A DNA stretch of 64,000 nucleotides from Natrinema halophilum (GTDB lineage Archaea > Halobacteriota > Halobacteria > Halobacteriales > Natrialbaceae), in the NCBI RefSeq assembly GCF_013402815.2, contig NZ_CP058601.1, positions 3,906,001 to 3,970,000 on the forward strand. Reading direction: 5' to 3'. A program made the position numbers and the translations under genes. Shown one piece after another: positions 5,735 through 19,861 of this stretch. Under the pieces are notes generated by a model. The model saw only the letters and a list, made by a program, of their open reading frames with translations, was not told the origin of the DNA and searched no databases. Within the stretch, counting starts at the first letter, position 1, and each line of letters opens with the position of its first letter.

Positions 5735-6499
5735 ATGGTCAACAATATGCGTGAGCTGACTTTTACGCTCGAGTACGAAGACGGGGTCGATCCCCTGATG
5801 GACACGTTTATCGAGAATCCGACGCTTTCGTCGGAGTCCATCGCCAGTTGTGTCCGCCGGGATCGGTTGTGGTCTCTCGAGCGGTTCTTTGGGTCCTCGT
5901 CAGCACTCGATAGCGTCGAACGCATCCGGTTGGACGACGAAACACCGAGAGAAGAGATGACGAAGTCGAACTGCGGAGCTGTTCGCCAGCACAACATACT
6001 CGAGCGATCGCCGACGACGCTCGCGCTCTATTCGGTTGTCAAACGGCTCCATACCTGCGATTCTGTGATGGCGGTTGCGGCCCGTCACCTCGATCTCGGT
6101 GGCATATTCCAGTCACATCGACGTGGCAACTGTTTCAAGTGGCGCATGCTCATGCCGACCGACGAGAACGTCGACGTGTTCCACGAACAAGTCGAAACGA
6201 ACCTCGACGAAGGGATTCAATTCACCCTCGGTCGCCTCTGTGAAGCCGAACAATTGAACTACGATTCGTTAGCAACGGTTTCGATGCCCCAAGAACAGCG
6301 GAATACGATCAGGGCCGCCATCCAACACGGATACTACGAAACGCCACGAGAAATCACGGTCAGTGAACTCGCGGAAGTCCTCGACGTTCCGCAGTCGACG
6401 GTATCCTATCGTCTCCGCCAGGCCGAAGCACAACTCGCCAAGGGATACCTGCAACGGTCTGACGAGGAGTTCCGTACGCAAGTTAGCCATCACACGTGA
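5735..6499 (+). CDS. HTH_10 (bacterio-opsin activator-type) transcriptional regulator
   Basis: A 254-residue regulator starting at 5735, just behind a good TATA box. The N-terminal two-thirds is the poorly conserved sensor half typical of haloarchaeal Bat/DmsR-like proteins. The C-terminus (about 190-254) is the HTH_10 domain: RAAIQHGYYETPREITVSEL, then a helix-turn-helix with VPQSTVSYRLRQAEAQL. It is divergent from the halocyanin-molybdoenzyme operon over a 244-nt gap, so control of that operon is the natural guess. The effector cannot be told. Confidence 0.82.
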   Translation: MVNNMRELTFTLEYEDGVDPLMDTFIENPTLSSESIASCVRRDRLWSLERFFGSSSALDSVERIRLDDETPREEMTKSNCGAVRQHNILERSPTTLALYSVVKRLHTCDSVMAVAARHLDLGGIFQSHRRGNCFKWRMLMPTDENVDVFHEQVETNLDEGIQFTLGRLCEAEQLNYDSLATVSMPQEQRNTIRAAIQHGYYETPREITVSELAEVLDVPQSTVSYRLRQAEAQLAKGYLQRSDEEFRTQVSHHT

Positions 6500-6606
6500 T
6501 CTGATACGTATTCGGGGCCCTTTCGGTTGGGGCCGACTCCGATTTCCCCTCGAGCACCCCGACGGAGACGATAATCTTCTATACGCGGGCCGAACAACCG
6601 CGGACC

Positions 6607-7344
6607 ATGTACGACGTCTGTATCGTCGGCGGGGGCGTCTCCGGCCTCGCCGCGTCGATCTTCACCGCTCGTGCGGGCCTTGACACCCTCGTCATCGATG
6701 GCGGGGAGTCCATTCTCGCGCGAAACGCAAGCCTCGAGAACTACCCCGGATTCCCCGACGGTGTCGACGCCCGCCAGTATCTGCGTCTCAGCCGCGAACA
6801 GGCCGAAAATGCCGGCGCCGCGTTCGAACTCGGTCGGGTGACGAGTATCGAGCCGGTTACCGAGCGCGACCTCGACGATGGCTTCGTCCTCGAGACAAAA
6901 GGGGGCGAACCGCTCGAGGCGCGACGCGTCGTCGCGGCCTCGTGGTCCGATAGCGACTACCTCGTCCCGCTCGATGTGGGCCGTATCCAACGCGGGAGCA
7001 AACACTTCGTCTCGGTCGACCAGGGCGGGCGAACGGCCGTCGACGGCATCTACGCGGCGGGCCGGCTCGCGGACGAACCCCACCAGGCGATTGTCGCGGC
7101 CGGACACGGCGCCAAAGTCGGGCTCGCGGTGATCCACGACTCGGACGCCAATTTCTATCACGACTGGGTCGCACCCGAAGGCTACTTCACGGGCCGCGGC
7201 CGCGAAGTTCCGCCGTGTTGCGAGGAAATAGACGACGCTGAACGCCGAGAACGCGACGAGCGGGCACGAAAGCGACTGCTCGAGGCCTTCGACGAACCGC
7301 TCGACGAGGAGCCGACGATGCACCCGAGCGTGGAGGGGGACTGA
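6607..7344 (+). CDS. Shortened thioredoxin-reductase-like FAD oxidoreductase
   Basis: A 245-residue flavoprotein with the N-terminal FAD motif (VGGGVSGLAA, residues 7-16) and the C-terminal FAD segment (VDGIYAAGRLADEPHQAIVA) of the TrxB family. The roughly 120-residue NADPH domain with its CxxC disulfide, which in TrxB sits between them, is missing, so it cannot work as a classical thioredoxin reductase. A charged tail of about 50 residues carries a vicinal Cys-Cys (PPCCEE). It lies 80 nt upstream of the IucA/IucC gene on the same strand. The electron partner is unknown. Confidence 0.75.
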   Translation: MYDVCIVGGGVSGLAASIFTARAGLDTLVIDGGESILARNASLENYPGFPDGVDARQYLRLSREQAENAGAAFELGRVTSIEPVTERDLDDGFVLETKGGEPLEARRVVAASWSDSDYLVPLDVGRIQRGSKHFVSVDQGGRTAVDGIYAAGRLADEPHQAIVAAGHGAKVGLAVIHDSDANFYHDWVAPEGYFTGRGREVPPCCEEIDDAERRERDERARKRLLEAFDEPLDEEPTMHPSVEGD

Positions 7345-7424
7345 ACGGTCGTTCGTATTCGCTGTCTCGCTCCCTGTGAATTAACACGGCGCGCGTCGAA
7401 GCTCCGTTCTGGCCCGTTCTACGT

Positions 7425-9560
7425 ATGAAGGGGACGATCCAGCGAAACCGCGATCGCGATACCTTCGAAACGGCGGCGGAACGGAACGCACTCGGCGCTG
7501 CGACCCGGTACGCTCGAACCCACGATCTCGCGACGCCGGCCGAGGCCACCTACCTCGAGGCGCTCGCCGGCGCCCGTAGAGATATTTGCCACCGGTTCGT
7601 CTGCGGCATCCTCCGCGGCGACCCGGACGGACTCCCGGCCTCGCAACCCATCGTTCTCGAACCGCCGCCGACGGCCATCCCGTCCGAACCCGAACCGCTC
7701 TCGGCGCTCGAGTCGGAGCAGTTGCAGTCGATCGTCGACCCAGTCTCCGAAGGGTGTCGCCGGCTCGCACTCGTTCCGTTTCCCGCTTCGAGGAACGTCC
7801 TGATCGCGGAGATCGCAGCGAGACACGGATACGATCGATTCCGACTGGTTGGACCGGTGCGTCGGTGGTCGGCGGACGATCCGTCGGCTACCCTCGTCGA
7901 AAGAGACGTCCATCCGGTCGATCTCGTTCCCGTTCTCGAGTGCGAAGAGGCGTTCAGCGACGGCGAACAGGCCGAACGGATTCGAGCGGAGGTCGCCGAG
8001 AGCGTCGTCAATCTCGCGCTCGCACGGCTCGCTGCGGCCGCCCAGGACCCAGATACAGATGGGGCCGACGAATCGAACGAGTCGCCCCTGGAGTTGGTCG
8101 TAAACGGTGTTCCGGCCGCCGATTCAGCCGCCGCCTTCGAGCGGATCGTCACCGACGGCCATCCCTTTCACCCGAGCGGCAAGATCCGGCGCGGAATGGG
8201 CCCCGCCGAGGGACTCGCGTACGCATCTGAATTCACCGACCGGATCGACCTCCGCTTCGTCGCGATCGACCGGGCGTACGCCCTCGAGACGAGCTCGATG
8301 GACGGTGACCGCATGACCGATCGACTGTACCGAACGTTCGAGGGCCTCGAGAATGCACTCGAGCGGGCGCTTCCCGAGAGCTGCGATCCCGCCGAGTACG
8401 CCGTCGTTCCCGTTCACCCGCTACAGTACCATCGCACGATTCCGGCCCGATTCGCTGACCAGCGCGCCGACGGCCGTGTCATCCCCATTCCGGAGTACGC
8501 ACGGCCGGCGACGCCACAGCTCAACCTTCGGACCGTCGTTCCGTTCGACACCGAAGGCACCGCTGATGGACCGCTACCGCGTTGCAAGCTCGCGATCGGG
8601 GTTCAGACGACGAACGTCGTCCGTACGTTGTCGCCACACGCCGTGACGAACGGGCCACAGGTGACCGACGTCGTGAGAGCGATCGAGAGGCGGGAATCAC
8701 TCGAGACGCTGGGGGTGGTGGCCGAGCCCGCTGCGACGTGTTACGATCGACCAGGCGGTCTCCACCAGGGCGGTGATGCGTTCGACGACGCCCGTCATCT
8801 CTCGGGATTACTCCGGACGTCACCGTCCGCCCACCCGCTCGTTACGGACGACACCGTGCCGGTCGTTGCCGCAAGCCTCGTCGCCGACTCGCCGGCTACC
8901 GGGCAACCGCTCGTCTGCGATCTGATCGAGCGATACGGGGCAAAAACTGACGCGGCGAGCCCCACAGATGCGGCGCTCGCGTTCGTCGATCGCTACGCGG
9001 GTGTCGTCGTCCCCGAACAGCTCCTGTTGCTCTGTCGGTACGGCCTCGCCCTCGAGAGTCACCTCCAGAACAGTCTGGTCGTCTTCGAGAGAGCGACCGG
9101 GCGACCCACTGCGACCCTCGTTCGCGATCTCGGTGGCATACGGGTCCATCGCGGCCGACTGGCCGATCACGGTCTCTCGCTCGATCCGTATCCGGATTCC
9201 GACCTGGACGCCGACAGCGAGGCGGATTGTTACCGAAAGCTGTACTATGCACTCTTCCAGAACCATCTCGCGGAACTCGTCGCGACGATCGGACACGAAC
9301 TGGCCGTCGACGAGCGGGCTTGCTGGGCGCGAATTCGCGGTCACTGCGAGCGTGCGTTCGACCGACTCCGAGCCGAGGGAGCTGATCCGATAGACCGGGT
9401 CCGACGGGACGAGCGCGCACTGTTCGCGGAGCCGGCGACACACAAAGCGTTGACCGCGATGCGACTGCAGGGCAAGCGTCACGAGTACGTGACGAGCGAT
9501 GTGTCGAACCCGCTCTCGTCGGACGGACGGCAGCGGATCGATTCGCCGGAGGGGGAATAA
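7425..9560 (+). CDS. IucA/IucC-family NRPS-independent siderophore synthetase
   Basis: A 711-residue ATP-dependent ligase of the type that couples citrate or its derivatives to amines in siderophore assembly. Family motifs are present: HPFHPSGKIRRGM (246-258), VPVHPLQYHRTIP, CKLAIGVQTTNVVRTLSPH, SGLLRTSP and LVRDLGGIRVH, with a FhuF-like C-terminal region. It is about 100 residues longer than usual, mostly before the first motif. No diaminobutyrate, lysine-hydroxylase or acyltransferase genes lie beside it, unlike typical haloarchaeal iuc clusters, so its substrate is open. Confidence 0.88.
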   Translation: MKGTIQRNRDRDTFETAAERNALGAATRYARTHDLATPAEATYLEALAGARRDICHRFVCGILRGDPDGLPASQPIVLEPPPTAIPSEPEPLSALESEQLQSIVDPVSEGCRRLALVPFPASRNVLIAEIAARHGYDRFRLVGPVRRWSADDPSATLVERDVHPVDLVPVLECEEAFSDGEQAERIRAEVAESVVNLALARLAAAAQDPDTDGADESNESPLELVVNGVPAADSAAAFERIVTDGHPFHPSGKIRRGMGPAEGLAYASEFTDRIDLRFVAIDRAYALETSSMDGDRMTDRLYRTFEGLENALERALPESCDPAEYAVVPVHPLQYHRTIPARFADQRADGRVIPIPEYARPATPQLNLRTVVPFDTEGTADGPLPRCKLAIGVQTTNVVRTLSPHAVTNGPQVTDVVRAIERRESLETLGVVAEPAATCYDRPGGLHQGGDAFDDARHLSGLLRTSPSAHPLVTDDTVPVVAASLVADSPATGQPLVCDLIERYGAKTDAASPTDAALAFVDRYAGVVVPEQLLLLCRYGLALESHLQNSLVVFERATGRPTATLVRDLGGIRVHRGRLADHGLSLDPYPDSDLDADSEADCYRKLYYALFQNHLAELVATIGHELAVDERACWARIRGHCERAFDRLRAEGADPIDRVRRDERALFAEPATHKALTAMRLQGKRHEYVTSDVSNPLSSDGRQRIDSPEGE

Positions 9561-9600
9561 CGGTCCGTTATTCGTCCGTTCGATCCGAAATTATGGGACG

Positions 9601-9782
9601 GTGCACCGGTGAAGGGTGAATCAGTGCATCGGTGAAGGGTGAATCAGTGCACCGGTGAAGGGTGAATCAGTGCACCGGTGAAGGGTGAATCAGTGCACCG
9701 GTGAAGGGTGAATCAGTGTACCGGTGAAGGGTGAATCAGTGTACCGGTGAAGGGTGAATCAGTGTACCGGTGAAAGGGCGAA
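9601..9782. repeat. 23-bp tandem repeat array, about eight units
   Basis: Seven full 23-bp units begin at 9601, 9624, 9647, 9670, 9693, 9716 and 9739, and a partial degenerate one at 9762. Each has an 8-bp core related to the palindrome caccggtg, followed by aagggtgaatca. Units 1 and 3-5 begin gtgcac, unit 2 gtgcat, and units 6-8 gtgtac, so the array changes along its length. The unit is not a multiple of three and carries stops, so it is non-coding. It separates the siderophore gene from the CinA-type gene. Confidence 0.95.
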
Positions 9783-9831
9783 CAGGCGTTCGACCGCAAT
9801 CTTATGTTCGTCGCCTGCGTCGCATCCGACG

Positions 9832-10566
9832 ATGGAGGTCGCCATTCTTACCGTCGGCGACGAAGTGCTCGCGGGGGACATCGCGAACACGAACGCACAG
9901 TGGCTTGCGAGTCGACTGACCGACCGCGGCGCCACCGTCGGTCGTATTCTCACCGTCCCGGACGATCGGGGGCTCATCGAGACGAGGATCCGAACGTGGA
10001 CGGACGCCTTCGACGCTGCGATCGTCACCGGCGGGCTGGGTGGGACACACGACGACGTCACCGTCGACGCAATCGCGGACGCATTCGATCGTGACCTTGC
10101 GGTCTACGAATCAGTCCGAAGGGACGTCATCGAAACCGTCGCGGAGTACCGTGATGCGAACCCCGAAACGGTCGCGGCTCACGAACTCGACATCGACGTC
10201 AACGAGTGGGCAGCGCTGCCCGCCGGCAGTCGGCCGCTCCTGAATCCAGACGGGCTCTGTCCGGGCTGCGTCCTCGAGAACGTCTACGCGTTCCCGGGTG
10301 TTCCGGGAGAGATGCGGGCCCTGTTCGACGGAATCGCCGAGGAATTTAGCGGCGACGCCGTCGCCCGAACGGTGTACACGCCACAGCCGGAGGGATCGAT
10401 GGTCGAGGCGGTCAACGGCGTCCGCGAACGATTCGACGTGACCGTCGGCAGTTATCCGGACAAGAAGGCGCGAAACCGCCTCAAAGTGACCGGAACGGAC
10501 CCAGCGGTCGTCGATGCGGCCGTCACGTGGCTCTCCGATCGGATCGCAATAGCGCCGGACGAGTGA
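9832..10566 (+). CDS. CinA/MoaB-type molybdopterin-binding domain protein
   Basis: A 244-residue single-domain MoCF_biosynth protein, matching the N-terminal domain of CinA without its deamidase half. The start is set at ATG 9832 because MEVAILTVGDEVLAGDIANT matches the family N-terminus, while the frame upstream runs into the tandem repeat. The motif VTGGLGGTHDDVT is the conserved ligand-binding turn. CinA-type domains have been linked to ADP-ribose or NMN salvage; the role here is not shown by the sequence. The coaBC gene follows on the same strand after 116 nt. Confidence 0.85.
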   Translation: MEVAILTVGDEVLAGDIANTNAQWLASRLTDRGATVGRILTVPDDRGLIETRIRTWTDAFDAAIVTGGLGGTHDDVTVDAIADAFDRDLAVYESVRRDVIETVAEYRDANPETVAAHELDIDVNEWAALPAGSRPLLNPDGLCPGCVLENVYAFPGVPGEMRALFDGIAEEFSGDAVARTVYTPQPEGSMVEAVNGVRERFDVTVGSYPDKKARNRLKVTGTDPAVVDAAVTWLSDRIAIAPDE

Positions 10567-12796: not shown

Positions 12797-13366
12797 ATGG
12801 ATCAGCTGAAACAGTCGCTCTTGGAGGCGCCAATCATCGAAAAAAACGGGTATCACTACTTCGTTCATCCGATTAGCGACGGCGTGCCCAAGCTCGATCC
12901 GACGCTGCTGCGCGAAATCGTCATCCGCATCATTCGAAAAGCCGAACTCGAAAACGTCGATCGGATCGTCACTCCCGCAGCCATGGGCATACATATCTCC
13001 ACGGCCGTTTCGCTGATGACGGACATTCCGCTGACGGTCATCCGAAAACGCCAGTACGGCCTCGAAGGTGAGGTCGCTATCTCGCAGCAGACGGGCTACT
13101 CGGAGAACGAAATGTACATCAACGACGTTCGTGCAGGAGAGCGCGTGCTCGTGCTCGACGACGTCCTCTCGACCGGCGGCACGCTCGCATCGGTGCTTGC
13201 GGCGCTCGACGAAATCGGTGCGGAAGTCGTCGATACGGTCGCGGTCATCAAGAAAGTCGGCGGGGAAAACAAGGTCGACGATGCCGACTACGACGTCAAG
13301 ACGTTGATCAATGTCGACGTCGTCGACGGAGAGGTAGTCATCATCGACGAAGATGGTGACCAATAA
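12797..13366 (+). CDS. hpt: Hypoxanthine/guanine phosphoribosyltransferase
   Basis: A 189-residue purine salvage enzyme that transfers ribose phosphate from PRPP to purine bases. It carries the PRPP-binding loop [13 protein letters not shown] and, before it, [19 protein letters not shown]. Archaeal HGPRTases of this type resemble adenine phosphoribosyltransferases, so exact base preference is not certain. It stands alone on the plus strand. Confidence 0.9.
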
Positions 13367-13552: not shown

Positions 13553-15199
13553 ATGGCAGGGAATAGTGTCGGGAGGGATGAACGAAGTCGGGTGGGGCGT
13601 CGTTCGTTCCTGACGCGAGCGGGGGCTGCTGGCATCGCTGGGCTTGCAGGGTGTATCAGCTTTAATGACGTTACGGCTGACGGTCCAGCAGAAGAATTGA
13701 TCCAGAAAGGGTTCGAAGCTACGGACGTCGATCCGCCGTTCGAGACGACAATCGCCATCACACAGGACGAAGAGCGAAAGAGATTCGCCCAACTTCTTCG
13801 GAACGTCCTCAACGACACCGGCTTTTTCGACGTTTCGATCGAACAGCGGGATTTCAGCTCTCAGGTCGATCTGATGCTCGGGGCGGCCGAGTCGAACACG
13901 AACGCCATGTTCGTCGCGAGTTGGACAGGCGGCTGGGATCCAAGCGACTACGTCGGGATGTTATTTCACTCAGACAGCCGGACGCCGAACGGTTTCAACG
14001 TCGGCCACTACAAAAACGAGACGGTCGACGAATACATCGATTCGGGCCTCACAGAGACTGACCTGGACGAGCGGGTCGACATCTATCGAAATCTGCAGGA
14101 AAAACTCGTCGCCGATTCTCCAGCGTCGTTCCTCCGCTTTCGCGAGACGACTCACGTCTGGGACGACGGCGTCGTTGCCGACTGGCAGACGTATCCACTC
14201 CGAACGGGGGCGTATTACGCGGTGTACGCCCCCTGGGCCGGGGTCTATGCCGATCTCGAGGAAGGAACCGAGTTCGTCGGCGACCTCGGTAGCGACGTCG
14301 CCAACTACGATCCCGTCTCGATAAACGGGACCGTCTCCAGCAAAGCGACGGCGCTCATCTACGAGGAACTCGTCGGTGTCGACTTCGACGGTGAGGTCCA
14401 ACCGATGCTCGCGACCGACTGGGAACAACGCGACCCGAAGACATACCGATTTACGCTTCGCGAGGGCGTCACGTTCCACAACGGCGAAGAACTCACCGCA
14501 AAACACGTCACGGGATCGCTCGAACGCTATAAAGGGACGGTCCGAGAAGCAGACGTCTACGACTGGTACGAGACCAGCGAGATCATCGACGACCACACGA
14601 TCGAGATCGTCTGCTCGCAAGAGTACGGTCCGTTCGAAACGGCGCTATTCAACGTCCCGATCGTGCCGATGGCGGCAATCGACGGAACTCACGATCTCGC
14701 GTCGGAACCGATCGGGACTGGACCCTACCGGTTCGTAGAGCACGATAGCGGCAATCACTGGCGGATGCAACGGTTCGACGATCACTGGTTCGACGGAAGT
14801 AAATCGGTCCCGGCGACGGCGCCGATCGAATCCGTAACGCTCGAGATCATCACCGAAAAGTCCTCCAGGCAGGGAGCGCTCGAACGAGGCGATATCGACT
14901 TCAGTTACGGGATTCCTTCGGCGAGCCTTACCGATTTCGAAGGGAACGATGCGTACGGCGTTGGCCGGCACGTAAGCGGCGGATTCGACATGGTTCTGTA
15001 TCCCGCCTATCTGGCACCGTTTTCGGATCGGGCGGTCCGCCGGGGCTGTAACATGTTGATCCCACGCGAGGAAACCCTCGAAACCGTCTACCACGGGGTC
15101 GGCCAACTGGGCTATACGCCAATTTCGCCCCTGCTCGAGAACTACGCCGACGAATCGTTTCAGAACGCAATCGCAAACGAGTACGTCCATCCGAACTAA
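13553..15199 (+). CDS. Dipeptide/oligopeptide ABC transporter substrate-binding protein, circularly permuted
   Basis: A 548-residue Tat lipoprotein (RRSFLTR at 16-22, lipobox LAGC, Cys34) heading an ABC import operon. Its SBP_bac_5 domain is in the wrong order. Residues about 44-225 match the family's C-terminal part: ERKRFAQLLRNVLNDTGFF, then VASWTGGWDPSDY and DERVDIYRNLQEKLVADSPA. Residues about 238-548 match its N-terminal part: VANYDPVS, LIYEELVG, TYRFTLREGVTFHNGEELT and IGTGPYRF. The protein ends at ISPLLENYADESFQNAIANE, the point normally followed by what stands here at residue 44. Length is that of one full protein, so this is a permutation rather than a partial duplication. Confidence 0.88.
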   Translation: MAGNSVGRDERSRVGRRSFLTRAGAAGIAGLAGCISFNDVTADGPAEELIQKGFEATDVDPPFETTIAITQDEERKRFAQLLRNVLNDTGFFDVSIEQRDFSSQVDLMLGAAESNTNAMFVASWTGGWDPSDYVGMLFHSDSRTPNGFNVGHYKNETVDEYIDSGLTETDLDERVDIYRNLQEKLVADSPASFLRFRETTHVWDDGVVADWQTYPLRTGAYYAVYAPWAGVYADLEEGTEFVGDLGSDVANYDPVSINGTVSSKATALIYEELVGVDFDGEVQPMLATDWEQRDPKTYRFTLREGVTFHNGEELTAKHVTGSLERYKGTVREADVYDWYETSEIIDDHTIEIVCSQEYGPFETALFNVPIVPMAAIDGTHDLASEPIGTGPYRFVEHDSGNHWRMQRFDDHWFDGSKSVPATAPIESVTLEIITEKSSRQGALERGDIDFSYGIPSASLTDFEGNDAYGVGRHVSGGFDMVLYPAYLAPFSDRAVRRGCNMLIPREETLETVYHGVGQLGYTPISPLLENYADESFQNAIANEYVHPN

Positions 15200-15222: not shown

Positions 15223-16170
15223 ATGTCGATCGGACGATACGTCTGCAAACGGGTGTTGATTACTGTACCGGTCCTGATCGGCGTCACCGCGTTGACCTTC
15301 TCGTTCGTCCATCTATTACCGGGAGATGCAGTGGATGCGATTATCGGCTTTCGAGACGTCAGCCCGGCAACAGAGGCGTCGATCCGAGCCGAATACCACC
15401 TCGATGAACCGGTGTGGAAACAGTACCTGCTGTGGCTCGGCGACGTCCTCACCCTCGATTTCGGCCACTCACCGATCACCGGTCGCGACGTAACGGCATC
15501 GATCGGGCACCGACTCCCCGCGACGGTCGCGCTCGGCGGAGCCGCGTGGTTGCTCGCCCTCGTAATCGGGATTCCAGCCGGAATCGTCGCCGCGGTGAAG
15601 CGGGGCGAACCGGCCGACGAACTCAGCCGAGTCGCCGCACTCGCCGGAATCGCCACGCCGAACTTCTGGCTCGGCCTCATTCTCTTGCTCGTGTTCAGCA
15701 TTCGGCTGGGTTGGTTTCGAGTTATCCCACCGGACGCACCGCTCGCGAGCCTCGCGATGGCGAAGTTCATGCTGTTGCCGACGATCACGCTCGGGACGGC
15801 CTCGGCTGCGCTCGTCACGCGACTGCTCCGATCGTCGATGTTGAGTGAACTCGACGCGGCATACGTCCGGACCGCCCGCGCGAAAGGACTTCGTGAGCGG
15901 ACGGTAATCCTGAAACACGTGCTTCGAAACTCTTTGCTTCCGGTCGTGACCGTGGCCGGCCTCCAGCTCGCCTTCCTCGTCGACGGCGCCGTCGTCGTCG
16001 AACAGATCTTCTCCTGGCCGGGCATGGGACGGCTCCTGGTTCGCTCCATCCTCGAACGTAATTATCCCGTCATCCAGGCGACTGTTCTGGTTATCGGCCT
16101 CGCGATCGTCCTCGCGAATCTGCTCGTCGATATCATCTACGCTGTACTGGATCCCCGCATTCGATACTAA
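15223..16170 (+). CDS. dppB: ABC transporter permease, DppB type
   Basis: A 315-residue inner-membrane subunit of a peptide/nickel-type importer. It begins with the typical cytoplasmic helix and first membrane span (VCKRVLITVPVLIGVTALTF) and the conserved FVHLLPGDAVDA. The EAA-loop that docks the ATPase is at ARAKGLRERTVILKHVLRNS. The gene starts 23 nt after the binding-protein gene and ends 3 nt before the second permease. Confidence 0.92.
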   Translation: MSIGRYVCKRVLITVPVLIGVTALTFSFVHLLPGDAVDAIIGFRDVSPATEASIRAEYHLDEPVWKQYLLWLGDVLTLDFGHSPITGRDVTASIGHRLPATVALGGAAWLLALVIGIPAGIVAAVKRGEPADELSRVAALAGIATPNFWLGLILLLVFSIRLGWFRVIPPDAPLASLAMAKFMLLPTITLGTASAALVTRLLRSSMLSELDAAYVRTARAKGLRERTVILKHVLRNSLLPVVTVAGLQLAFLVDGAVVVEQIFSWPGMGRLLVRSILERNYPVIQATVLVIGLAIVLANLLVDIIYAVLDPRIRY

Positions 16171-16173
16171 CCG

Positions 16174-17298
16174 ATGAGCGACCGTCACCCCACCACCGAA
16201 CGCGGCCGTATTCGAATCGTCGGCTTCGACGACGCCGTCTCGAACCAGCACCGGCAGGACGACGAGACGCACGCCGACGGGGTGACGGCGACGGCACCGA
16301 ATACAGATCAAACGGCGGCCACACCGACGGAGAAACGGCAAACCGGATGGGCCGAGCGAACGAGACGTCACCGCCTCGAAGATGCGTGGCGACGGTTTCG
16401 CCGAAACCGCTCGGCTCTGTTCGGCGCGGTCGTTATCGTCACGATGGCGGTACTGGCACTCTTCGCGCGGCCGATCGAGGTGTCAACTGCGGAGGTGACG
16501 GTCACGTTACAGCCGATTTCGCTAGCTCCGTACGATCCATCCGAAACGTTAGTCGGGCCACAGAACGCTCCGCCTTCCCCGGCGCATCCGTTCGGGACCG
16601 ACTGGGCAGGCCGCGACCAGCTCTCGCGCATCCTCGTCGGCGGGCGATACACGCTGAGCATCGGCCTCGTCGCCGTCGTGCTCGCACTCGCCGTCGGCGT
16701 TCCGCTCGGAGCTATCGCGGGCTATTTTGGCGGCTGGATCGACGAGAGTATTATGCGGCTCGTCGACGTGCTGTACGCGTTCCCGTTTCTGGTGCTGGCG
16801 ATCGCAATCGTCCCGATCCTCGAGCCAGTGCCGATCCTCGGAAGCGGGTTCTCTACGGTCGTGCTGGCGCTCGTCGTCACCGGCTGGATCGGCTATGCGA
16901 GGCTGTTGCGGGGTGAAGTGCTTTCGATCCGAGAACGCGAGTACGTAACCGCAGCCAGAGCGCTCGGCGTTCCCGATCGGACCATTATTCGCAGACACGT
17001 CGTCCCGAACGCGATCGCACCCGTCATCGTCCAGGCGACGCTCAACATCGGAACGGTCGTCCTCACTGCGGCGGCGCTTGGCTTTCTCGGTCTCGGTCTC
17101 GAGCCCGGGAGCGCGGAGTGGGGCGCGATGCTCTCGCAGGGCCGAAGTTCGCTCATCAGGGGTGACTGGCACGTAACGATGTTCCCCGGAGCCGCGATTT
17201 TCCTGTTCGTACTCGCGATCAACCTCGTCGGAGACGGCATCAACGACGCGCTCGATCCGCACAGAGACGTGGCGGACGAACGGAGGCGGTTCCGCTGA
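16174..17298 (+). CDS. dppC: ABC transporter permease, DppC type
   Basis: A 374-residue permease, partner of the DppB-type subunit. A polar N-terminal extension of about 70 residues precedes the first span (SALFGAVVIVTMAVLALFA). Family features follow: PAHPFGTDWAGRDQLSRIL, YTLSIGLVAVVLALAVGVPL, and the ATPase-docking loop AARALGVPDRTIIRRHVVPN. Its TGA overlaps the ATG of the next gene (TGATG), indicating tight coupling. Confidence 0.92.
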   Translation: MSDRHPTTERGRIRIVGFDDAVSNQHRQDDETHADGVTATAPNTDQTAATPTEKRQTGWAERTRRHRLEDAWRRFRRNRSALFGAVVIVTMAVLALFARPIEVSTAEVTVTLQPISLAPYDPSETLVGPQNAPPSPAHPFGTDWAGRDQLSRILVGGRYTLSIGLVAVVLALAVGVPLGAIAGYFGGWIDESIMRLVDVLYAFPFLVLAIAIVPILEPVPILGSGFSTVVLALVVTGWIGYARLLRGEVLSIREREYVTAARALGVPDRTIIRRHVVPNAIAPVIVQATLNIGTVVLTAAALGFLGLGLEPGSAEWGAMLSQGRSSLIRGDWHVTMFPGAAIFLFVLAINLVGDGINDALDPHRDVADERRRFR

Positions 17299-18503
17299 TG
17301 GCCCTGCTCGAAGTCGAGGACCTCGTCGTCCAGTTCTACACCGAAGACGGCGTGGTTCGAGCGGTCGACGGCATCAGTTACGAGATCGACGCGGGTGAAA
17401 CGGTCGGACTGGTCGGCGAGAGCGGGGCCGGCAAGAGCGTCGCCAGCCTGTCGCTGCTTCGGCTGATCGAGAGCCCGGGCGAAATCGTCGGCGGCCAAAT
17501 CCGCTTTCGCGGTCGGAATCTCCTCGACCTCCCGGACGACGAGCTCCGGGCGCTTCGCGGGGACGAGATCGCGATGGTGTTTCAGGACGCCGGGGCGGCG
17601 CTCAATCCAGTCTACACCGTCGGCGAGCAGATCGCTGAAGCGATACGCGCCCACGAAGCCGTCTCCGACGCCGAGGCCCGCGACCGGGCCACCGCGCTTC
17701 TCGACCGGGTCGGCATCCCCGATCCGACCGCGCGGTACTCGGACTACCCCCACGAGTTCTCCGGGGGGATGCAACAGCGGGCCGTCATCGCGATGGCACT
17801 GTCCTGCGATCCGTCGGTGCTCATCTGTGACGAGCCGACGACCGGGCTCGACGTCACGGTTCAGGCGGGAATCCTCGAGTTGCTCTCGGACCTCTCGCGG
17901 GAGTCCGAAACGTCGATCCAGCTGGTCACGCACGACCTCGGAGTCGTCGCGGAGCTTTGCGATCGGGTGCTGGTGCAATACGCCGGGCAGATCGTCGAGC
18001 GCGCGCCGATCGAGGAGCTGTACTACGACCCGAAACACCCGTACACCGTCGGCCTGCTCGCCTCGATCCCCCAGCTGGGCGACGAGCGAGACCGTCTCAC
18101 GACTGTTCCCGGTTCGGCCCCCGATCTCGTCGATCCGCCGACCGGCTGTCGATTTCATCCGCGCTGTCCGTACGCCGAGAACGTCTGTGCTCGACGCGAG
18201 CCACCGCTCGTGGAGGCCGATCGCGGGACGCCGACCGACGGCGAGACAGACGGCCACGTCGCCGCCTGCCTCGAGTACACCGGCGACCTTGACGGAGGGC
18301 TGGACTACGAGGTGCACGTCAGGGACGAAGCCGGCGAAAAAGACGTTCGAGGAGGAGACGAAACGGAGAACGAACGAAACGAGGATGAGCGAGGAAGAGA
18401 CGAAACGGAGAACGAACGAAACGAGGGTGAGCGAGGAAGAGACGAAACGGAGCGAGAGAACGACTCCCGACGGGAACACGGACAGCACGGTGAGTCACGA
18501 TGA
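17298..18503 (+). CDS. dppD: ABC transporter ATP-binding protein, DppD type, with repeat tail
   Basis: A 401-residue ATPase: Walker A GESGAGKS (40-47), Q-loop Gln96, signature FSGGM (154-158), Walker B VLICDEP (174-180), switch His212, then the oligopeptide/dipeptide C-terminal motif with GCRFHPRCPYAENVC. From about residue 345 the protein continues into a very charged Arg/Glu/Asn tail not found in standard DppD, built from a 14-residue repeat (see 18357-18482). The stop overlaps the next gene's ATG. Confidence 0.93.
   Translation: MALLEVEDLVVQFYTEDGVVRAVDGISYEIDAGETVGLVGESGAGKSVASLSLLRLIESPGEIVGGQIRFRGRNLLDLPDDELRALRGDEIAMVFQDAGAALNPVYTVGEQIAEAIRAHEAVSDAEARDRATALLDRVGIPDPTARYSDYPHEFSGGMQQRAVIAMALSCDPSVLICDEPTTGLDVTVQAGILELLSDLSRESETSIQLVTHDLGVVAELCDRVLVQYAGQIVERAPIEELYYDPKHPYTVGLLASIPQLGDERDRLTTVPGSAPDLVDPPTGCRFHPRCPYAENVCARREPPLVEADRGTPTDGETDGHVAACLEYTGDLDGGLDYEVHVRDEAGEKDVRGGDETENERNEDERGRDETENERNEGERGRDETERENDSRREHGQHGESR
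18357..18482 (+). repeat. 42-bp in-frame tandem repeat encoding the DppD tail
   Basis: Units start at 18357, 18399 and 18441, exactly 42 bp apart. The first two are nearly identical and the third diverges after about 15 bp. Each encodes 14 residues of the form DETENERNEDERGR. Being a multiple of three, the repeat can change copy number without breaking the gene. Confidence 0.9.
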
Positions 18504-19861
18504 CGAAAGCGGACGACCAGCTATCGTCGACCGCCGACCGACGTCAGCCGACCGACGACCAGCCGCTCATCCGGGCCGAGGGCCTCGAGAAGTCCTATAC
18601 TACCGCTGACGGGTTCCTCGACCGACTCCTCGGGCGAACCGAGACGGTCAAAGCAGTCGACGGTATCGACCTCGAGATTCGACCGGGCGAAACGGTCGGG
18701 CTGGTCGGCGAGAGCGGCTGCGGTAAGACCACCCTCGGCCGGGCGCTCGTTCGTCTGCTCGAGCCGACCGCAGGGTCGATCACCTATCGCGGCGAGGAGA
18801 TTGCCGACTGTTCCGGAACCGACCTCCGAGAGCTGCGAACCGAGATTCAGTACGTCTTTCAGGACCCCGTTGCCAGTTTGAACCCGCAGCTGACCGTCGG
18901 CGACAGCATCGGCGAAGCCCTTGCAGTTCACGACATCGGTCCTGCAAATCGACGCGACGAACGCATCAGGGACCTGCTCGAAACGGTCGGTTTGCAGGCC
19001 GAACACGCGTCGCGTTACCCGCGGGAGCTTTCCGGCGGCCAGCGCCAGCGGATCGGAATCGCTCGCGCACTCGCCGTCGAGCCCGAGTTCATCGTCTGCG
19101 ACGAACCCGTCTCCGCGCTCGACGTATCGGTTCAGGCCGGAATCCTCAACCTGCTGTCCGACTTGCAGAACGAATACGGACTCTCCTTTCTCTTTATCAC
19201 CCACGACCTTTCGGTCGTCGAACACGTCGCCGATCGGGTCGCGGTGATGTATCTCGGCACTCTCGTCGAGACCGGGACGACTGCCGAAGTATTCAACGCA
19301 CCCTCCCATCCGTATACAGAAGCGCTGCTGTCGGCAATCCCCGAACCCGACCCCTGTTGGGACGGCGACCGGATCGTCCTCGAGGGTTCCGTTCCCTCCC
19401 CGACGGACCCGCCGTCGGGCTGCCGGTTTCACACGCGCTGTCCGAAGATTATTCCGCCGGCTGAATACGACCTCGGCGCGGACGTATTTCGAGCAGTCAT
19501 GACGTTGCGAATCCGACTCGCCGAAGCGGAGGGGCAGACCGGCACCGGACTCGAGGCGCTGCTCTCGCGGACCAGAGACGATCCAGAGACCGTACCGACT
19601 GCCCTTCGGAAGGCCTGCGGAATTCCCGACCGACTCTCCGACCCGGACGCCGATGCCGTCCTCGAGGACGCGCTTGAGGCCGCCGCAACCGGTAACCTTG
19701 TCGCCGCCCGGCGTCGGCTCGCCTCGGCGTTCGAGACGCCTTGTGAGACGACCGAACCGCCCCTCGAACCGGGATCGGCCGACCACCCGATAGCCTGCCA
19801 CCGGTTCGACGCTCGATTCGAAGCCGACGCCGAGCCGACCGGTAGATCGTACACCAACTAA
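18500..19861 (+). CDS. dppF: ABC transporter ATP-binding protein, DppF/OppF type, with C-terminal insertion
   Basis: The 453-residue second ATPase of the importer: Walker [10 protein letters not shown] (70-78), Q-loop [11 protein letters not shown], signature LSGGQ (177-181), Walker B IVCDEP (198-203), switch His235. The usual C-terminal module begins at [10 protein letters not shown] (308-316) but is then split by roughly 100 residues, rich in Arg/Ala/Glu, before it resumes at DHPIACHRF (about 428-436). The insertion looks helical. The ATG overlaps the dppD stop by 4 nt. Confidence 0.92.

Follow-up and report, generated by a model that had tools for sequence, protein, structure and literature searches.

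The gene at 13553–15199 (forward strand) of the window, by which we mean the whole 64,000-nucleotide stretch of the Natrinema halophilum genome analyzed here, raises the question of whether a DppA-type substrate-binding protein can carry its two parts in swapped order and still work, and how often such proteins have arisen. Proteins of the DppA/OppA type enclose their substrate between lobes and pass it to the DppBC permease. A preliminary description had proposed that the window protein is a circularly permuted member of this family, with a Tat lipoprotein signal followed by blocks at residues 44–225 and 238–548 and a linker at 226–238. The gene is one open reading frame of 548 amino acids. 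Its first stretch (13553–13654, +) contains the motif RRSFL, with the twin arginines at R16-R17, and ends in the lipobox LAGC at Cys34, a combination that reads as an export and anchor signal of the Tat lipoprotein type. The twin arginines and the lipobox cysteine also precede the first block in the orthologues tested from the window protein's own group (termed group A below).

To read the order of the parts, we used a profile of 504 positions derived from 12 unpermuted haloarchaeal relatives only. In its native order, the window protein yielded two matches whose arrangement was not collinear: profile positions 314–501, the ancestral C-terminal part, fell on residues 45–232 (13685–14248, +; 188.3 bits, iE 2e-57), while positions 1–309, the ancestral N-terminal part, fell on residues 240–546 (14270–15190, +; 366.7 bits, iE 2e-111). 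When the mature chain was rotated stepwise and the best single profile match was scored, rotation at residue 236–239 merged the two matches into one, which spanned positions 1–501 of 504 with 562.3 bits and left about four profile positions, all in loops, uncovered. E. coli GsiB, run as a control through the same scan, scored best in its native order. The swap, the Tat lipoprotein signal ahead of the first block and the full length of both parts (profile positions 1–309 and 314–501 of 504) were thus as proposed, and the proposed borders held to within about seven residues, with the old C-terminal part reaching to about residue 232 and the join between the old C-terminus and the old N-terminus lying at about residues 233–239 (14249–14269, +).

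Searches against general collections gave a similar picture. Pfam model PF00496 matched the window protein with 187.8 bits (curated cut-off 32.4), its best stretch being profile positions 1–261 at residues 281–538. In the PDB, residues 247–531 aligned to the N-terminal part of 5u4o (residues 52–336), and residues 62–189 aligned to the C-terminal part of the same structure (residues 362–484; 31 bits, E 9e-7). The protein terminates just before a conserved 'DPEKAxELL' helix, which is now found after the lipobox. By its profile, Pfam and PDB matches, the window protein is thus a member of SBP_bac_5 (PF00496, DppA/OppA-type) in circularly permuted order. Because the canonical N-to-C order of the family is swapped in this protein, we filed it as a permuted variant of SBP_bac_5 and not as a canonical member.

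The binding-protein gene is followed on the same strand by genes for a DppB-type permease (15223–16170; PF00528, PF19300; 55–89% identical in other operons), a DppC-type permease (16174–17298; PF00528 and PF12911 OppC_N), a DppD-type ATPase (17298–18503; PF00005, PF08352) and a DppF-type ATPase (18500–19861; PF00005, PF08352). Two permeases and two oligo_HPY ATPases make up the predicted architecture of a Dpp/Opp-type importer. The intact dppBCDF operon of the preliminary description was therefore borne out as far as its architecture is concerned. None of the NCBIfam equivalogs came near its cut-off with the window binding protein, and no NCBIfam model spanning the permuted order was matched. 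At 19400–19861, the DppF-type ATPase carries a C-terminal extension of more than 100 residues past oligo_HPY, much of which is kept in near relatives. Upstream of the binding-protein gene, on the same strand and separated by a gap of 186 bases, lies a gene for an archaeal purine phosphoribosyltransferase (12797–13366; HPT_Archaea, above the curated cut-off), which is probably not part of the dpp operon.

The closest unpermuted relatives of the window protein (L034–L037, L055 and L056) are found in another haloarchaeal family (f4) and share 45–50% identity with it in the N part and 35–41% in the C part. They have the canonical order, yet they sit in the same operon where this was looked at: the gene order B-C-D-F is the same behind permuted and unpermuted orthologues, and DppB is 55–63% identical beside unpermuted binding proteins, compared with 83–89% in near relatives. 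The operon is orthologous in both kinds. The change of order thus took place within a transport operon that was itself conserved, with no need for a different type of transporter.

The preliminary description had also suggested a search for haloarchaeal orthologues in the same order. Among 291 other genomes of a class sample, 24 contained a full-length permuted orthologue. Eleven of these belonged to the same genus (64–77% identical), while orthologues from other genera and from another family shared 42–52% identity in the search and, for the most distant ones, 38–42% by tblastn. A further orthologue with 82% identity is encoded on the complete chromosome of Natrinema gelatinilyticum, so that the full-length permuted orthologues overall cover a range of 38–82%. 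One more copy in the sample, in the draft genome G164 (L141, about 2083–2103), is interrupted by a Nextera mosaic end (CTGTCTCTTATACACAT) together with an N; a reading of this split copy as a two-gene version or a frameshift was rejected in favor of an adapter scar in the draft assembly. An error of assembly or annotation in the window's genome, as the scar in the draft relative might suggest, is a practically negligible explanation of the swap: nothing comparable occurs in the window, and the 24 other genomes, several of them with the gene in a single large contig, as well as the complete chromosome of N. gelatinilyticum show the same order, which also disposes of the assembly join considered in the preliminary description. 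The same source had raised the possibility of a second, unpermuted copy; the orthologues are permuted alike, and no close unpermuted copy was found in the window's genome, where the PF00496 protein closest to it shares 28% identity.

Genes that have been rearranged frequently turn out to be pseudogenes, and on this general ground the window gene might be a decaying or non-functional rearrangement. The dN/dS values between relatives ranged from 0.07 to 0.35 in both halves, and the gene appears to be under purifying selection. Nearly all profile positions as well as the signal and the lipobox are kept. In addition, an AlphaFold2 prediction of the mature permuted chain, with 34 permuted sequences as input, reached a mean pLDDT of 94.3 and a pTM of 0.90. 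Residues 204–515 of the model superposed on residues 3–308 of E. coli YliB/GsiB (1uqw) with a Z score of 25.3 and an rmsd of 2.1 Å over 298 residues. As the structure aligners depend on chain order, this superposition covers one part of the model, and the assignment of the C-terminal half rests on sequence, namely the match to 5u4o and the 35–41% identity to unpermuted orthologues. Selection on both halves, the kept positions and signal and the confident predicted fold all argue against decay, which we consider very improbable, in agreement with the functional permutation favored in the preliminary description. It is highly probable that the gene encodes a working lipid-anchored binding protein of the Dpp/Opp type with a naturally permuted family 5 fold.

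Block profiles were then applied to read the part order in each fetched locus; with these, the controls E. coli OppA, DppA and GsiB were all read as having normal order. Three permuted groups emerged: group A, to which the window protein belongs, group B, and group C with proteins of about 650–700 amino acids. The genome of the window itself has two neighboring group B genes, on contig C1 at about 5.7–10.5 kb, so that 3 of the 8 PF00496 genes of this genome are permuted. The group B frames on C1 (about 5739–10489; L065, L004, L142) measure 609 and 684 amino acids. Structure prediction for a group B protein was likewise confident, with a pLDDT of 90.2 and a pTM of 0.87.

In order to trace these groups, we calculated a maximum-likelihood tree in which the two parts of every protein were restored to one order (74 sequences, 484 columns). 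Four order changes were needed on this tree, and its starred branches forced at least three, while shuffled labels needed 24. In principle, a single gain with two losses could also account for three changes. Group C was nested within successive unpermuted branches with starred support, and constraining groups A and C to one clade changed the log-likelihood by –479 units (p-AU 3e-81). Uniting the two permuted sets of group A in one clade gave a p-AU of 0.10, and group A may stem from one event or from two, with a loss or a second gain inside it. A larger tree that included bacteria, calculated in a quick version, agreed.

The groups also differ in the place where the chain was opened. In group A the opening lies immediately ahead of the conserved DPEKAKELLKEAG helix, which in these proteins directly follows the lipobox, whereas groups B and C were opened after the helix, about 18 residues further on. 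The C-terminal ends resemble '...LEEAGYTWDDDGRLHYPEE' in group B and '...ERAEELLEQVAADN' in group C. When superposed on E. coli DppA (1dpp), the group A model ends at residue 327 and the group B model reaches about residue 345. The join in group C, 'APQDEQIMWVDREN...SEGGTLR', is composed of the old C-terminal tail and part of the old spacer behind the lipobox; the unpermuted L085 has 'SPQDERIAWIDE' and '...LVEGGTLR' for comparison. Such a remnant would be expected if a canonical gene had been duplicated in tandem, fused and trimmed, and the permuted genes may have originated by this route. No double-length or tandem fused intermediates were detected among the fetched loci. Three open reading frames of 866–1244 amino acids (L047, L048 and L083) were examined as candidate fusions and rejected, as each contains one copy in normal order and its frame runs on upstream.

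Alternatively, a single ancient permutation could underlie all three groups, with the intervening unpermuted clades being reversions. Such a scenario would accommodate the nearly identical cut place of groups B and C and the p-AU of 0.10, by which the two permuted sets within group A could be one clade. It conflicts with the nesting of group C in unpermuted branches and the likelihood cost of a clade of A and C, and with the cut of group A on the opposite side of the helix. Moreover, to revert, a gene would have had to be permuted once more in the opposite sense, with both old ends recovered. We therefore regard a single event as improbable and assume that, besides group A, at least group C and most likely both B and C arose by a permutation of their own.

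Concerning the distribution of these separately permuted groups, group C proteins in permuted order were found in 27 of the 284 haloarchaeal genomes, and the profile matches of related unpermuted copies were confined to the old N-terminal part. Group B is common in haloarchaea: with its profile in permuted order, 115 of the 284 genomes gave a match with an E value of 1e-60 or lower; the listed matches span most of the profile, and some of them are group A proteins. In the same phylum outside the haloarchaea, nearly all listed matches covered the N part only and were thus unpermuted. Three permuted members were found there among the matches listed, all of them in one family (f15). The f15 protein L143 (genome G450, reverse strand, 588 amino acids) is permuted, has a Sec-like signal and ends in a 'TPGFG...RRRR' tail; this tail is PGF-CTERM-like, and anchoring would be at the new C-terminus. 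Among bacteria, where the spread is drawn from plasmids only, group B proteins read as permuted are encoded on alphaproteobacterial plasmids of Nitratireductor (WP_113156578.1, L095), Ketogulonicigenium (WP_013385786.1, L096), Roseomonas (WP_237182973.1, L100), Maritalea (WP_117397031.1, L127) and Neorhizobium (L128). Transporter genes follow in the four annotated alphaproteobacterial copies.

What the permutation might mean for the protein can be sketched as follows. The old C-terminal segment (about residues 45–232) comes first after the Tat lipoprotein signal, a short linker (about residues 233–239) joins the old C- and N-termini, and the new C-terminus lies just before the conserved surface helix. 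The protein would close on its substrate and deliver it to the DppBC permease like DppA. The main physical difference would concern the lipid anchor at the N-terminal cysteine, which would pull at the place where the chain was opened, on domain III and not, as in DppA, on domain I. The permutation could then be adaptive, with the moved anchor changing the presentation of the substrate to the permease or the facing of the surface layer. Consistent with this idea, the chain was opened within one small region in separate events, most permuted members carry an N-terminal lipobox, and one non-halobacterial member has the PGF-CTERM-like C-terminal tail instead. Anchoring was also suggested as a possible reason for the permutation of the Treponema binding protein TpMglB-2 by the authors of its structure (PMC4990184). 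On the other hand, in the same operon orthologous permeases are also paired with unpermuted orthologues, so that no new partner was needed, and the recurrence of the cut site might reflect no more than a permissive loop at the surface. An adaptive role of the anchor is therefore possible, though rather doubtful, and the sequence would fit an advantageous shift as well as one that is simply tolerated. The wider proposal that family 5 was permuted at least three times independently, in archaea and bacteria and in the same helix region, because the anchor shift aids delivery, is put forward as a tentative one.

Compared with known systems, the window protein is homologous to SBP_bac_5 of cluster C (DppA, OppA, GsiB/YliB, NikA; PF00496) over 501 of 504 positions. 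It resembles this cluster in the predicted fold of its old N-terminal part (1uqw, Z 25), the BCDF operon and the lipoprotein signal, but differs in the swapped order of its two parts. No solved structure in permuted order was found among the PDB sequence matches listed. TpMglB-2 (Tp0684) from Treponema pallidum, assigned to 'Type Ic / cluster Bc', is a natural permutation that was crystallized and shown to bind its ligand (PMC4990184, PubMed 27536942). It is likewise a naturally permuted ABC substrate-binding lipoprotein, but has the Type I (cluster B) sugar-binding fold, belongs to another branch of the superfamily, is cut elsewhere and represents a separate event; the window protein lacks the features of Type Ic / cluster Bc and matches PF00496 and cluster C structures. 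Groups B and C share both the family and the swap with the window protein and differ from it in the cut behind the helix, and group B also occurs in Alphaproteobacteria. As stated in the preliminary description, no published permutation in SBP_bac_5/family 5 was found, here within the open-licence literature. We are thus dealing with a recurrent change of chain order in a familiar family, for which no prior description was found.

Circular permutations are seldom seen in nature, and their independent recurrence at almost the same site, with unpermuted relatives in an equivalent operon setting, is rarer still. Permuted and unpermuted proteins form natural matched pairs in which the effects of chain order and anchor position on folding, on Tat export and on delivery of the substrate could be compared. 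Binding proteins often serve as scaffolds for biosensors, an application in which a cut site that is permissive by nature would be directly useful. Finally, permuted members of this very large and routinely annotated family are named as ordinary ones: the best Pfam stretch amounts to no more than a truncated match, and the annotated plasmid copies looked at were all named 'ABC transporter substrate-binding protein'.
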